From Cyanobium sp. CH-040 (lineage in GTDB: Bacteria; Cyanobacteriota; Cyanobacteriia; PCC-6307; Cyanobiaceae): 64,000 bases of DNA. Under the pieces are notes generated by a model, which saw only the letters and a list, made by a program, of their open reading frames with translations, was not told the origin of the DNA and did not search any database. Below are positions 15,601 through 19,210 of the stretch, one piece after another. The DNA lies in NCBI RefSeq assembly GCF_024346135.1, contig NZ_JAGQCJ010000003.1:62001-126000 (forward strand), given 5' to 3'. Position 1 is the first letter of the stretch. Each line of letters opens with the position of its first letter. The position numbers and the translations under genes were made by a program.

Positions 15601-15685
15601 ATTCAGGCCAGCCGTCCACCCCTCCTTGCCCCTGCTCCCATCCCTGCGGCGTCTGGGCTTGGGGCCCGGCAACGCCCAGGCCACC

Positions 15686-16744
15686 ATGCAGGACTGGCCC
15701 GGACTGATCGAGGCCTACCGCCGCTGGCTGCCGGTGAGCGAGCGCACACCGGTGATCACCCTGCGGGAGGGTGCCACCCCGCTGATTCCGGCACCGGCGA
15801 TCGCCGAGCGGGTGGGCAATCGGGTGAAGGTGTTCCTCAAGTACGACGGCCTGAACCCCACCGGCTCCTTCAAGGACCGGGGCATGACCATGGCCATCTC
15901 CAAGGCCCGGGAGGCGGGCTCGGAGGCGGTGATCTGCGCCAGCACCGGCAACACCTCGGCCGCCGCGGCGGCCTACGCCCGGCGCGGCGGCATGCGCGCC
16001 TTCGTGCTCATCCCCGACGGCTACGTGGCCCAGGGGAAGCTGGCCCAGGCCCTGCTCTACGGCGCCGAGGTGATCGCCATCCAGGGCAACTTCGACCGGG
16101 CCCTGGCCATCGTGCAGGAGGTGGCCGAGCAGTATCCGGTCACCCTGGTGAACTCGGTGAACCCCTACCGGCTGCAGGGCCAGAAGACCGCGGCCTTCGA
16201 GGTGGTCGATGCCCTCGGTGAAGCCCCCGACTGGCTGTGCATCCCCGTGGGCAACGCCGGCAACATCAGCGCCTACTGGATGGGCTTCAACGAGTACCGC
16301 GACGCCGGTCACTGCCGCAGCGTGCCGCGCATGATGGGCTTCCAGGCCGCCGGTTCGGCACCGCTGGTGCTGGGCCACACGGTGGAGCAGCCCGACACGA
16401 TCGCCACCGCCATCCGCATCGGCAACCCCGTCAACCGGGACAAGGCCCTGGCAGTGCGCAGCGAGAGCGGCGGTGACTTCACGGCCGTCACCGACGCCGA
16501 GATCATCGAGGCCTACAAGCTGCTCGGCAGCCAGGAGGGGGTGTTCTGCGAGCCGGCCAGCGCCGCCTCGGTGGCCGGCCTGCTCAAGCGCCGGGAGGAG
16601 GTGCCGGCGGGGGCCACGGTGGTGTGCGTGCTCACCGGGAACGGCCTCAAGGACCCCGCCACCGCCATCGAGCACAACGAAGCCCGCTTCCACACCGGCC
16701 TGGAGGCCGACACCGCCAAGGTCGCCGAAGTGATGGGGTTCTGA
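15686..16744 (+). CDS. thrC: Threonine synthase
   Basis: A 352-residue PLP enzyme converting O-phosphohomoserine to threonine. PLP-binding Lys63 lies in NPTGSFKDRGMTMA, the phosphate-binding loop is PVGNAGNISAYW, and STGNTSAAAAAYA forms the substrate loop. An upstream TTG would give 20 more residues, but the ATG at 15686 (MQDWPGLIEAYRRWLPVSE) matches the usual beginning of cyanobacterial ThrC. A hairpin with a T-run follows the stop. In related picocyanobacteria thrC lies on the other side of the origin from dnaN, as here. Confidence 0.95.
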   Translation: MQDWPGLIEAYRRWLPVSERTPVITLREGATPLIPAPAIAERVGNRVKVFLKYDGLNPTGSFKDRGMTMAISKAREAGSEAVICASTGNTSAAAAAYARRGGMRAFVLIPDGYVAQGKLAQALLYGAEVIAIQGNFDRALAIVQEVAEQYPVTLVNSVNPYRLQGQKTAAFEVVDALGEAPDWLCIPVGNAGNISAYWMGFNEYRDAGHCRSVPRMMGFQAAGSAPLVLGHTVEQPDTIATAIRIGNPVNRDKALAVRSESGGDFTAVTDAEIIEAYKLLGSQEGVFCEPASAASVAGLLKRREEVPAGATVVCVLTGNGLKDPATAIEHNEARFHTGLEADTAKVAEVMGF

Positions 16745-16777
16745 ACCCACCGGATCGGCGGAACGCTTCACCACCAC

Positions 16778-16805
16778 GCCCCTGGCCCAGCGCCGGGGGC
16801 TTTTT
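16778..16805 (+). terminator. Rho-independent terminator of thrC
   Basis: A 9-bp GC-rich stem (left arm 16778-16786, right arm 16792-16800, one G-T pair) with a 5-nt loop, followed directly by five T residues. It begins 33 nt after the thrC stop. It is the clearest intrinsic terminator in the window and isolates the origin region from thrC transcription. Confidence 0.8.
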
Positions 16806-16941
16806 CATGGGCCGCCGGGGACGCGTCCGCAGGACCTGCCGGCATGGACCGGTGCACAAAGTGACTGCGGAGAAGGGGACCAAAACAGCAGGCGATCGCG
16901 GGGAGAGCGGGGAGCGAGCGGGACCTCGCGGAGGCCCGGAC

Positions 16942-16971
16942 TTTTCCACCGGGGCGGGAAACGGTGGAAAA
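16942..16971. repeat. Inverted pair of DnaA-box-like 9-mers
   Basis: TTTTCCACC at 16942-16950 on the plus strand and the identical 9-mer on the minus strand at 16963-16971, separated by 12 bp. Each differs from the TTTTCCACA consensus only at the last base. The symmetric arrangement is unlikely by chance in such GC-rich DNA. Confidence 0.65.
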
Positions 16972-17053
16972 CGGGCCGTTCTCCCCATTTCCTCGCCTCC
17001 ATTCCGCAGCCCTGACGCCTGGCAGCAGGGCATCCCTGGGGCGATCTGCCCGG

Positions 17054-17071
17054 TTTTCCCCGATTCCCACA
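17054..17071 (+). repeat. Tandem weaker DnaA-box-like motifs
   Basis: Two adjacent 9-mers, TTTTCCCCG (17054-17062) and ATTCCCACA (17063-17071), each match TTTTCCACA at seven of nine positions. They lie directly beside the AT-richer segment. Weak individually; counted because of clustering. Confidence 0.4.
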
Positions 17072-17172
17072 GCCTCTACTGCTGCTGGCTCAATGGTTTG
17101 GTTGTTCTCTTCATCTGATCCATAGACGGGTGGCAGGCGGGCGGATCACCGGCGTTGCGGATTCCGCCGCCC

Positions 17173-17181
17173 TGTGGAAGC
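17173..17181 (-). repeat. DnaA-box-like motif near dnaN start
   Basis: Minus-strand GCTTCCACA, seven of nine matches to TTTTCCACA, 51 bp before the dnaN ATG. It could serve the origin or DnaA autoregulation of dnaN transcription. Confidence 0.4.
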
Positions 17182-17231
17182 GTGGTGGCCCATCCGCGCA
17201 CCGGTGCCCTTCCGGCCTCACCGCCCCCGCC

Positions 17232-18380
17232 ATGAAGCTGGTCTGCTCCCAGTCGGAACTCAGCGCCAGCCTTCAGCTGGTGAGCCGGGCCGTGGCCGCC
17301 CGCCCCACCCACCCGGTGCTGGCCAATGTGCTGCTCACCGCTGACGCCGGCACCGGCCGGCTCAGCCTCACTGGCTTCGACCTCAGCCTCGGCATCCAGA
17401 CCAGCCTCAGCGCCGAGGTGGAAGCCAGCGGCGCCATCACCCTGCCGGCCCGTCTGTTCGGGGAGATCGTCTCGCGCCTTGCCGCGGACAGCCCCATCGG
17501 TCTGCACTGCCCCGAGGGCGGCGAGCAGGTGGAGCTCACCAGCCTCTCCGGCTCCTACCAGATGCGGGGCCTGCCCGCCGAGGACTTCCCCGATCTGCCC
17601 CTAGTGCAGACCGGTCAGCCCATCCGCCTTGAGGTCGAGGCCCTGGTCAAGGGACTGCGGGGCACCCTGTTCGCCAGCAGCGGCGACGAGGCCAAGCAGC
17701 TGCTCACCGGGGTGCACCTGCGCCTGGAGGACGACGCCCTGGAATGCGCGGCCACCGATGGACACCGGCTGGCGGTGCTGCGTCTGGTGCAGGGAGGGGA
17801 GACGCCCCCCGCCGCCGCCGATGGGGAGCCCTTCGCCGTCACCGTGCCCGCGCGCTCCCTGCGGGAACTGGAGCGGCTGCTCTCCGGCCGCCAGTCCAGC
17901 GAGCCCCTGAGCCTCTTCTGCGAGCGGGGCCAGGTGGTGTTCCTCTGGGCTGACCAGGTGCTCACCAGCCGCAGTCTCGACGGCACCTATCCCAGCTACC
18001 GCCAGCTCATCCCCGAGAGCTTCAGCCGCAGCATCAGCGTCGATCGCCGCGCCCTGGTGGCGGCCCTGGAGCGGGTGGCGGTGCTCGCCGACCAGCACAA
18101 CAACGTGGTCAAGCTCAGCACCATGGCCGGCAGCGGCCAGCTGCAGGTGCAGGCCGATGCCCAGGACGTGGGCCGGGGTTCGGAGGCCGTGGCCGCCGGG
18201 ATCGAGGGAGAACCGATCCAGATCGCCTTCAATGTGCGCTACCTGCTCGACGGACTCAAGGTGATGGCCGCCGATCAGGTGGTGCTGCAGTGCAACGCCC
18301 CCACCACCCCCGCCGTGCTGCGTCCGCTGGATGAGTCCGACTTCACCTATCTGGTGATGCCGGTTCAGATCCGCGTCTGA
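17232..18380 (+). CDS. dnaN: DNA polymerase III beta subunit (sliding clamp)
   Basis: A 382-residue clamp that tethers the replicative polymerase to DNA. It starts MKLVCSQSELSASLQLVSRA, continues with the three-domain clamp pattern (GFDLSLGIQTSLSAEV in domain 1, ATDGHRLAVLRL in domain 2), and ends with the family-specific YLVMPVQIRV. The ATG at 17232 gives the standard length. It is preceded by the candidate origin and followed after 5 bp by the PRC-barrel gene, so they probably form an operon. Confidence 0.97.
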   Translation: MKLVCSQSELSASLQLVSRAVAARPTHPVLANVLLTADAGTGRLSLTGFDLSLGIQTSLSAEVEASGAITLPARLFGEIVSRLAADSPIGLHCPEGGEQVELTSLSGSYQMRGLPAEDFPDLPLVQTGQPIRLEVEALVKGLRGTLFASSGDEAKQLLTGVHLRLEDDALECAATDGHRLAVLRLVQGGETPPAAADGEPFAVTVPARSLRELERLLSGRQSSEPLSLFCERGQVVFLWADQVLTSRSLDGTYPSYRQLIPESFSRSISVDRRALVAALERVAVLADQHNNVVKLSTMAGSGQLQVQADAQDVGRGSEAVAAGIEGEPIQIAFNVRYLLDGLKVMAADQVVLQCNAPTTPAVLRPLDESDFTYLVMPVQIRV

Positions 18381-18385
18381 ACGCC

Positions 18386-19210
18386 TTGGCCCTTCCCGAG
18401 CAGCTGCTGCTCAGCGATCTGCTGAAGCGCCGCGTGCGCGACCAGGAGGGTCTTGAGCGGGGCACCGGCGTGGCGGTGTGGATGCATCCGCCGGTCCATC
18501 GGGTGCTGGGCTGGGCCAGCCGCCCCTCGATGTTCGGCACTCGCCGGCTGGTGTGGCGTCTCAACCAGCTCGCGGGCCTGCTGGAGCTGGAGGCCCTCGT
18601 GAAGGGCGAGCCGGCCGACACCGATCAGGCCACGCTCGAGCGCCTGCCCACCCTGATCGATGCCGCCCTGCTCGATCGCGACCGCCAGCCGATCGGCACC
18701 GTGGCCGATGCCGCCATCGACCTGCGCAGCGGCGCCATCCGCCACTACCTGGTGAGCCGCAGCGATCCGCGCCTGCCCGGCAGCAGCCGCTGGCGGCTCA
18801 GCCCCGACCGCATCGTCGATCAGCAGCCGGGGCTGGTGTCCACGGCGCTCTCGGGCCTCGACGATCTGCCCCTGGCCCGCGCCAGCGTGCGCCAGGACCT
18901 GCTGCGGCGCTCAAGGCGCTGGCGGGAGCAGGTGCAGCAGGCCGGTGAACGCCTGGAGTCGCGCGTGGAGGGCTGGCTGGAGGAGCCGCCCTGGGACGAC
19001 TCCGATGGCGTCGAGGAGGAGCCGGTGGACTGGCGGCAGTCGGACGACGCGCCCCCCGGGCCGGAACCCTGGGACGAGGAGGACTGGGACTGGGAAACCG
19101 CCGAACCGCCTCCGGACCATCCCCGCAGATCCCGCCGTCCCCGCCAGGATCCACTGCCCCGCGGCGGCTCGTACGACGGTGACGACGACGACGGCGACCC
19201 CTGGATCTGA
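18386..19210 (+). CDS. PRC-barrel-like protein next to dnaN
   Basis: A 274-residue protein conserved next to dnaN in picocyanobacteria (synteny from memory). Two PRC-barrel-like segments are visible: [15 protein letters not shown]...[16 protein letters not shown] (about 7-43) and [20 protein letters not shown] (about 93-112). The C-terminal 80 residues are extremely acidic, Trp- and Pro-rich ([21 protein letters not shown]) and probably disordered. The start appears to be a TTG 5 bp after the dnaN stop, which suggests translational coupling. Function unknown. Confidence 0.75.

Follow-up and report, generated by a model that had tools for sequence, protein, structure and literature searches.

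The recognition of single-stranded origin DNA by DnaA is said to have been resolved only recently, and in one model species. In Bacillus subtilis, the bases of the DnaA-trios are captured by five residues of DnaA (N187, I190, I193, R202 and E228), and C was reported in 2023 to replace the trio A better than G or T, both in vitro and in vivo (PMC10721633). Among cyanobacteria, an origin near dnaN, DnaA binding and the essentiality of dnaA have been reported for Synechococcus elongatus (PMC7198777), whose BUS has been reconstituted in vitro and is unwound by its cognate DnaA (PMC8287927). The latter work defines a BUS by a box with at most two mismatches to the species-type motif and a second box with at most four (PMC8287927). 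In the S. elongatus-type origins of our collection (L183 and L184), TTTTCCACA TTTTCCACA GCCC is followed by CTA CTA CTA (or CTA TTA CTA) and then by an AT tract. In addition, DoriC 10 notes for GC-rich cyanobacteria, Cyanobium gracile being an example, that A/T positions of TTTTCCACA tend to be replaced by G/C (PMC6323995).

The thrC-dnaN gap and its DnaA boxes

The window, meaning the whole 64,000-nucleotide stretch that was analysed (G000:C21:62001-126000), is about 71% GC and comes from a genome of 2.9 Mb in 27 contigs, whose closest named relative by DnaN is the Cyanobium MAG L010 (95% identity). A 487-bp intergenic gap (16745-17231) runs from the end of a thrC-like gene (15626-16744, plus strand) to the start of dnaN (17232-18380, plus strand), which it adjoins. 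The dnaN frame carries all three Pfam beta-subunit domains of the DNA polymerase III beta clamp and has homologues in 148 of the 150 genomes of the order; the left frame matches Pfam PALP, a PLP-dependent enzyme (2.7e-77), a match that would fit a threonine synthase without fixing that name. The thrC terminator named in the original prediction is borne out by pattern: an intrinsic terminator-like hairpin with a T tail (16778-16805, plus strand), whose stem at 16778-16800 has nine pairs, eight of them G-C. The same prediction held that picocyanobacterial genomes are numbered from this junction, which is true of part of the group: in 21 of the 150 order genomes dnaN starts at contig base 174. 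A structured RNA leader was considered and rejected, as an Rfam scan of 16000-18400 gave no match at the gathering threshold.

Seven sites within two mismatches of TTTTCCACA lie in the gap on both strands together, compared with a mean of 0.86 in 1000 dinucleotide shuffles, none of which reaches seven. Sliding 487-bp stretches across the whole window (n = 1271, step 50) hold a mean of 0.37 and never more than 7 such sites, and every one of the best six by box count overlaps the gap, so that the boxes form a cluster beyond chance. All five 9-mers that had been named before (an inverted pair, a tandem pair and one near dnaN) are present where they were placed, and their claimed closeness to the cyanobacterial DnaA box extends to all seven sites, each of which differs from TTTTCCACA by one or two mismatches. 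An exact TTTTCCACA is absent among the seven, which counts against the oriC reading. Hereafter, box position 7 refers to the base that is A in TTTTCCACA and C in TTTTCCCCA.

The inverted pair consists of two copies of TTTTCCACC with one mismatch each, the left arm at 16942-16950 on the plus strand and the right arm at 16963-16971 on the minus strand (GGTGGAAAA on the plus strand). The aligned position of the left arm is kept in relatives, with the consensus GTTTTCCCCAG. Two weaker box-like sites with two mismatches each, both unnamed in the original prediction, were found at 16866-16874 (TTCTCCGCA, minus strand) and 16979-16987 (TTCTCCCCA, plus strand). Genome-wide, TTTTCCACC occurs eight times in 2.9 Mb and the reversed pattern six times, so the 9-mer by itself is not special; two of the eight copies are the pair of the gap, 21 bp apart. 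Likewise, TTWTCCACA with one mismatch shows no enrichment over the whole window (5 vs. 3.3 expected). A profile from which this genome and its nearest relative were left out gives the pair as a module (16941-16972) 41.7 bits, against 4.4 bits for the pair's own opposite strand and -1.8 for the best place elsewhere in about 328,000 positions. Folded as a hairpin, it reaches -13.1 kcal/mol (z -2.5; 3 of 200 shuffles do at least as well), and a cruciform reading was rejected because any inverted box pair would fold in this way.

A further block on the left (16857-16890) looked conserved and was tried as well. Its profile is unspecific, however, scoring 16.9 bits here and 19.6 bits at L204:1577. 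This second place is unrelated on reading and still outscores the block, for which we therefore make no claim; the minus strand around it (G000:C21:21400-21800, or L204:1400-1800) presumably resembles the end of an IS3-type transposase.

The tandem pair opens a longer arrangement. BUS box 1 (TTTTCCCCG, 17054-17062) and BUS box 2 (ATTCCCACA, 17063-17071), both on the plus strand, abut each other and align, respectively, to the first and the second box of L183, the S. elongatus-type origin. A GC-rich spacer GCCT comes after them (17072-17075, plus strand), its counterpart being GCCC in L183 as well as in 39 of the 79 gaps compared, and then four DnaA-trios on the minus strand (17076-17087), 3'-GAT GAC GAC GAC-5', read as CTA CTG CTG CTG on the plus strand. 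The AT-richest 40 bp of the gap (57.5% A+T) follow at 17089-17131 and are a probable duplex unwinding element; only 0.05% of the 40-mers in this 71% GC window are equally AT-rich. Measured against the BUS rules of PMC8287927, both boxes have two mismatches to TTTTCCACA, the spacing to the trios is 4 bp from box 2 and 13 bp from box 1 where up to 16 bp is allowed, and there are four NAN trios where at least three are asked for. Box 1 has three mismatches to the E. coli motif TTATCCACA. A cross-validated profile gives the module (17053-17088) 41.4 bits and the next place 4.3. Judged by its letters, the tandem pair with its next 16 bp reads as a BUS (box, box, GCCT, four trios), followed by the AT tract.

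Closer to dnaN stands a conserved element GTTGCG-N13-TGTGGAAGCGTGG (17154-17185, plus strand; 45.8 bits, against -4.8 at the next place), which encloses the box-like site GCTTCCACA (17173-17181, minus strand, two mismatches). The pattern GTTGCG-N13-TGTGRAASCGTGG occurs a single time in each of 19 genomes out of 61 in the family, with none for the reversed control, and all 15 of these 19 genomes in which the position of dnaN was compared have it immediately upstream of that gene. The second half of the element has two main versions in the alignment, TGTGGAAGCGTGG and TGTGAAACCGTGG. The element is perhaps a dnaN promoter plus a DnaA box, and our guess would be an unusual promoter with TTGCGC, a 17-bp spacing and an extended -10.

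Conservation, strand composition and other readings of the gap

Our comparison started from 93 loci, namely 80 dnaN loci kept out of 200 relatives and 13 obtained by a genus search; they include the window itself (L090), and several others represent the same species twice. In 87 of the 93, the window's own among these, the end of a thrC homologue lies upstream of dnaN. Three loci with no usable thrC end (L040, L088, L102) and three on the minus strand (L094, L096, L101) were left out, which gave 87; together with the window these made 88 gaps, 81 of them distinct, and dropping L059 and L077 left 79, the window's included. The gap measures 363-618 bp in relatives with two exceptions, the same L059 and L077 (1797 and 1422 bp), where there is either an insertion or a misplaced thrC end.

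Three blocks stand out in the alignment of the 79 gaps: the box pair around 16941-16972, the tandem pair with CCCCTACGACTACGG and a stretch rich in T behind it, and, close to dnaN, CGTTGCGC together with TGTGGAAGCGTGG. Their profiles, which leave out the window and its closest relative, score 41-46 bits in place and at most 4.3 bits elsewhere in about 328,000 positions, the opposite strand of the box pair (4.4) excepted. With L183 as template, the box-box-trio module was found in all 79 distinct gaps at 21-30 of 33 bases (26 in the window), compared with 13-21 in 1580 shuffled gaps, a single one of which reaches 21. In 8 of 13 congeners, a relaxed version of the tandem-box pattern gives a single match, always just upstream of dnaN, and the reversed control gives none; the other 5 of the 13 have no match at three mismatches. 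Further out, the module is recognisable upstream of dnaN in 20 of 20 additional picocyanobacteria of the family and in 13 of 20 distant cyanobacteria. The remaining seven (L185, L186, L189, L192, L195, L196 and L202) have no module within 500 bp upstream of dnaN, their best scores of 15-18 of 33 being at chance level. Adjacency to dnaN alone is thus no proof of an origin; by sequence these seven appear to be real exceptions to the origin-at-dnaN rule, and they may have their origin elsewhere or have lost DnaA dependence.

For strand composition, 20 stretches per genome were sampled in three congeners with single-contig assemblies (G005, G007 and G011), covering 13-15% of each chromosome. TA skew puts the best origin at dnaN itself in G005, and 0.023 (G007) and 0.033 (G011) of the chromosome away from it in the other two. 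GC skew, the check proposed along with the original prediction, was run on the same sample: 27%, 2% and 35% of positions outscore dnaN in G007, G011 and G005, and the best origins lie 0.12-0.17 of the chromosome from dnaN with a small amplitude. GC skew is weak in the genus and neither confirms nor refutes an origin at dnaN. The plus-strand share of coding sequences right and left of dnaN (0.521/0.520, 0.493/0.488 and 0.419/0.474) shows no origin-like switch in G007 and G011 and the opposite of the expectation in G005, which speaks against the oriC reading. In 164 kb of the window's own contig, TA skew has a positive sign to the left (+0.015) as well as to the right (+0.039) of dnaN, so the skew of this genome gives no support. 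As a separate observation, dnaA sits 0.53-0.59 of the chromosome from dnaN/oriC in G007, G011 and G005 and about 0.61 in G034, also a single-contig genome, and is in all four closer to the far side than to the origin.

Taken together, the proposal of an origin upstream of dnaN is upheld by the homology of the module, by the synteny and conservation of the gap and by TA skew in the three congeners. We consider the gap 16745-17231 to be, very probably, the DnaA-dependent chromosomal origin (oriC), and it is the predicted trios and unwinding tract, which had escaped the original prediction, that make the case.

This origin has to be weighed against two other readings of the gap. The boxes could serve a DnaA-regulated promoter or leader of dnaN, repressing or timing its transcription without any origin being present, for which the conserved 17154-17185 element, 47-78 bp upstream of dnaN, with its fixed spacing and a box-like site inside, would speak; circadian dnaN expression in S. 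elongatus also appears in the title of a reference in PMC4674748. Trios and an AT tract some 100-155 bp upstream of dnaN suit unwinding and not repression, however, TA skew turns at or near dnaN in three congeners, the homologous S. elongatus region is the reported origin, and a simple scan of 16700-17300 finds no sigma-70-like promoter. We regard a promoter or leader alone as the least probable of all the readings considered. It would also be conceivable that the gap is a vestigial origin whose sequence persists and that replication starts independently of DnaA at many sites, as reported for Synechocystis 6803 and Nostoc 7120. Against such decay stand an intact DnaA, a module kept in 79 of 79 gaps, trio middles that change in a strongly restricted way (26 T-G against 1 T-C, see below) and an origin-like switch of TA skew; V-shaped GC skew is moreover reported for most species of clades C-G in PMC7198777, the main text of which contains neither the word Cyanobium nor Prochlorococcus. 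The same source describes several losses of DnaA dependence in cyanobacteria (PMC7198777), and the weak GC skew and coding-strand bias and the absence of an exact box would fit a further one. We rate a vestigial origin as very unlikely and keep the functional oriC as our reading.

Drift of trios, boxes and DnaA in the lineage

Across the 79 gaps, the middle base of trio 1 (minus strand) is A in all 79. That of trio 2 is C in 50, A in 26, T in 2 and G in 1; that of trio 3 is A in 40, C in 36 and T in 3; and that of trio 4 is C in 63, A in 12, and T and G in 2 each. All four middles are A or C in 69 of 79 gaps. The first three are all A in only 7 of 79 (6 of 78 without the window), and at least one C occurs among them in 66 of the 78 gaps of relatives, where G or T is rare. 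The window keeps four A-middled trios, hence C-middled trios are a property of its relatives and not of the window. In the recognisable distant origins, the first three middles are all A in 13 of 13. A genome set that only partly overlaps the 79 gaps was sorted by the DnaA residue discussed below. Here the first three middles are uniformly A in all 13 low-GC Thr genomes, in 1 of the 32 genomes with Ser and in none of the 17 marine-type Thr genomes; within the first four, bases that are neither A nor C turn up in 0, 3 and 1 of these, respectively.

Parsimony on the DnaN tree gives 26 T-G, 1 T-C, 2 A-T, 3 A-G and 2 C-G changes (plus strand) at the middles of trios 2-4, counts that depend on tree error and on each other and on trios assigned from an ungapped template. 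The ratio of T-G to T-C is 77:140 in neighbouring T-rich columns and 137:283 at fourfold sites of dnaN, and the trio bias departs from these two controls with binomial values of about 3e-11 and 4e-12 when changes are treated as independent. T-C exceeds T-G in both controls, so ordinary mutation would give more T-C than T-G in the trios as well. Adenine and cytosine both bear a primary amine. The bias of the trios towards C is what the amine rule of PMC10721633, by which bases carrying an amine function at this position, predicts.

The boxes drift too. Among TTTCCNC cores, A occupies position 7 in 45 of 156 cores from Ser genomes, compared with 39 of 69 cores from GC-rich Thr genomes (Fisher p 1e-4, relatedness ignored). 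Counts of this position made with a fixed template are approximate for box 1 and box 2, as they fall out of register when the boxes lie 10 bp apart. The 69 cores of these GC-rich, marine-type Thr genomes have 39 A, 28 C and 2 G at this position. GC content is 67% in the Ser genomes and 59% in the marine-type Thr genomes. We make no claim that Ser causes the drift of the boxes, confounded as it is with GC and with a single clade, and entertain this as a hypothesis.

The DnaA of this genome is intact (470 aa, on contig C27), with N-terminal, ATPase and helix-turn-helix domains, and it keeps all of the B. subtilis base-capture residues N187, I190, I193, R202 and E228 in an alignment to 8btg. A search of 38 genomes gave 30 DnaA loci, hence 31 proteins with the window's own; an E. 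coli row added for reference was removed before columns were compared. Between 11 Cyanobium-like and 20 other proteins, only two columns are fixed and different (11/11 vs. 20/20): column 396 has Lys in place of Arg and column 431 has Ser in place of Thr (counting from the second codon), and these correspond to B. subtilis positions 380 and 415 in the 8btg alignment. Both changes are carried by the DnaA of the window itself, and with looser filters columns 305 and 437 are near-diagnostic as well. By comparison with the E. coli row, column 431 is probably E. coli T435, and the Lys change is presumably adjacent to the residue equivalent to R399. Base-specific contacts of E. coli DnaA have been described for residues 399, 423, 432-435 and 438-439 (PMC5043019), a T435M mutant is reported to be defective in box binding (PMC5742627), and the basic loop and recognition helix, where both of our changes are found, are DNA-contact elements of DnaA (PMC11511705).

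A signature was obtained from 149 of the 150 order genomes, and Ser appears only in the genus codes g1, g8, g9, g11, g14-g17, g24 and g25. Its codon is TCN in some genomes and AGC in others, in neighbouring groups. In a thrC tree of 41 of the 42 rows offered (G102 gave none), the Ser genomes form one group (100/100) with the TCN genomes as a clade inside it (100/97); the AGC genomes do not come out as one resolved clade, and the AU test does not reject a single clade for them (p 0.43). Since TCN and AGC differ by more than one base, Ser must either have originated twice from Thr or have been reached by way of another residue.

How far these changes belong together can be put in two ways. It is possible, at somewhat less than an even chance in our estimate, that in GC-rich picocyanobacteria the trios have become mostly 3'-G-(A/C)-Y-5', with C as a second capture base as DnaA reads the amine rather than adenine as such, and that Ser, gained at the recognition-helix residue that contacts the bases and reached through two or more codon routes (TCN and AGC), loosened the preference at box position 7 or shifted it from A to C. 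To the alternative, in which GC-biased mutation produced the drift of boxes and trios and the change of Thr to Ser as side effects unconnected with each other and without co-adaptation, we would give an even chance. The shift of position 7 to C is already seen in marine-type genomes that keep Thr (59% GC); the Ser genomes are also the GC-richest (67%), by which GC and Ser are confounded; C-middled trios occur in Thr genomes too and are thus independent of Ser; and the box drift of Cyanobium gracile is tied to GC richness by DoriC 10 (PMC6323995). Biased mutation would, on the other hand, have to account for trio middles that gain C and hardly G (26:1 against 77:140 and 137:283 in the controls), for the sole two fixed and different DnaA columns both falling in DNA-contact elements, and for neighbouring groups that encode the Ser differently, by TCN and by AGC.

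The drift of the boxes is already in print. The trio and Ser changes are apparently unreported: among the matches listed by full-text searches of the main text of openly available papers, there was no report of natural C-middled trios or of a Thr to Ser change in DnaA.

Proposed mechanism and comparison with known origins

From the biochemistry of DnaA, domain IV would bind the inverted pair (16942 and 16963) and the tandem boxes (17054 and 17063), and a DnaA-ATP oligomer would grow rightwards from the tandem boxes onto the minus-strand trios 3'-GAT GAC GAC GAC-5', whose 3'-GA-5' bases domain III would capture. The adjoining AT-richer tract (17089-17131) would then be opened and the helicase loaded there. 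GC-rich relatives look retuned at three points of this scheme, with A to C at box position 7, A to C at the trio middle and the Ser and Lys changes in DnaA, and it is our hypothesis that the changes in DnaA compensate for those in the DNA.

The gap is read here as an oriC of a known kind, and it is the drift of initiator and origin in the lineage that makes a recent mechanistic model testable. The 66 of 78 natural origins with C for A in the first three trios amount to an evolutionary test of the amine-capture rule, and a search rule that accepts only NAN may miss or misplace C-middled trios. The lineage also offers a change in the DNA that is paired with one in the protein, at a position where one of the most conserved proteins of bacteria contacts DNA.

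Among described systems, the S. elongatus-type origin (L183) likewise adjoins dnaN and has several boxes and the order box-box-GCCC-CTACTACTACT followed by an AT tract. It holds seven exact copies of TTTTCCACA, whereas the window holds none; the window further differs in its trios (CTA CTG CTG CTG), in a tract that is less AT-rich and in Ser for Thr in the recognition helix. The oriC predictions of DoriC for Cyanobium gracile PCC 6307 and others lie, like the window's, beside dnaN with degenerate boxes (PMC6323995), and the DoriC 10 text describes neither a trio change nor a change of a DnaA residue (PMC6323995). With the B. subtilis BUS (DnaA-boxes 6/7 and trios; 8btg), the window shares tandem co-oriented boxes, a short spacer, trios and the residues of the capture pocket; the trios of its GC-rich relatives are, in contrast, often C-middled, and an engineered C worked in B. 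subtilis (PMC10721633).
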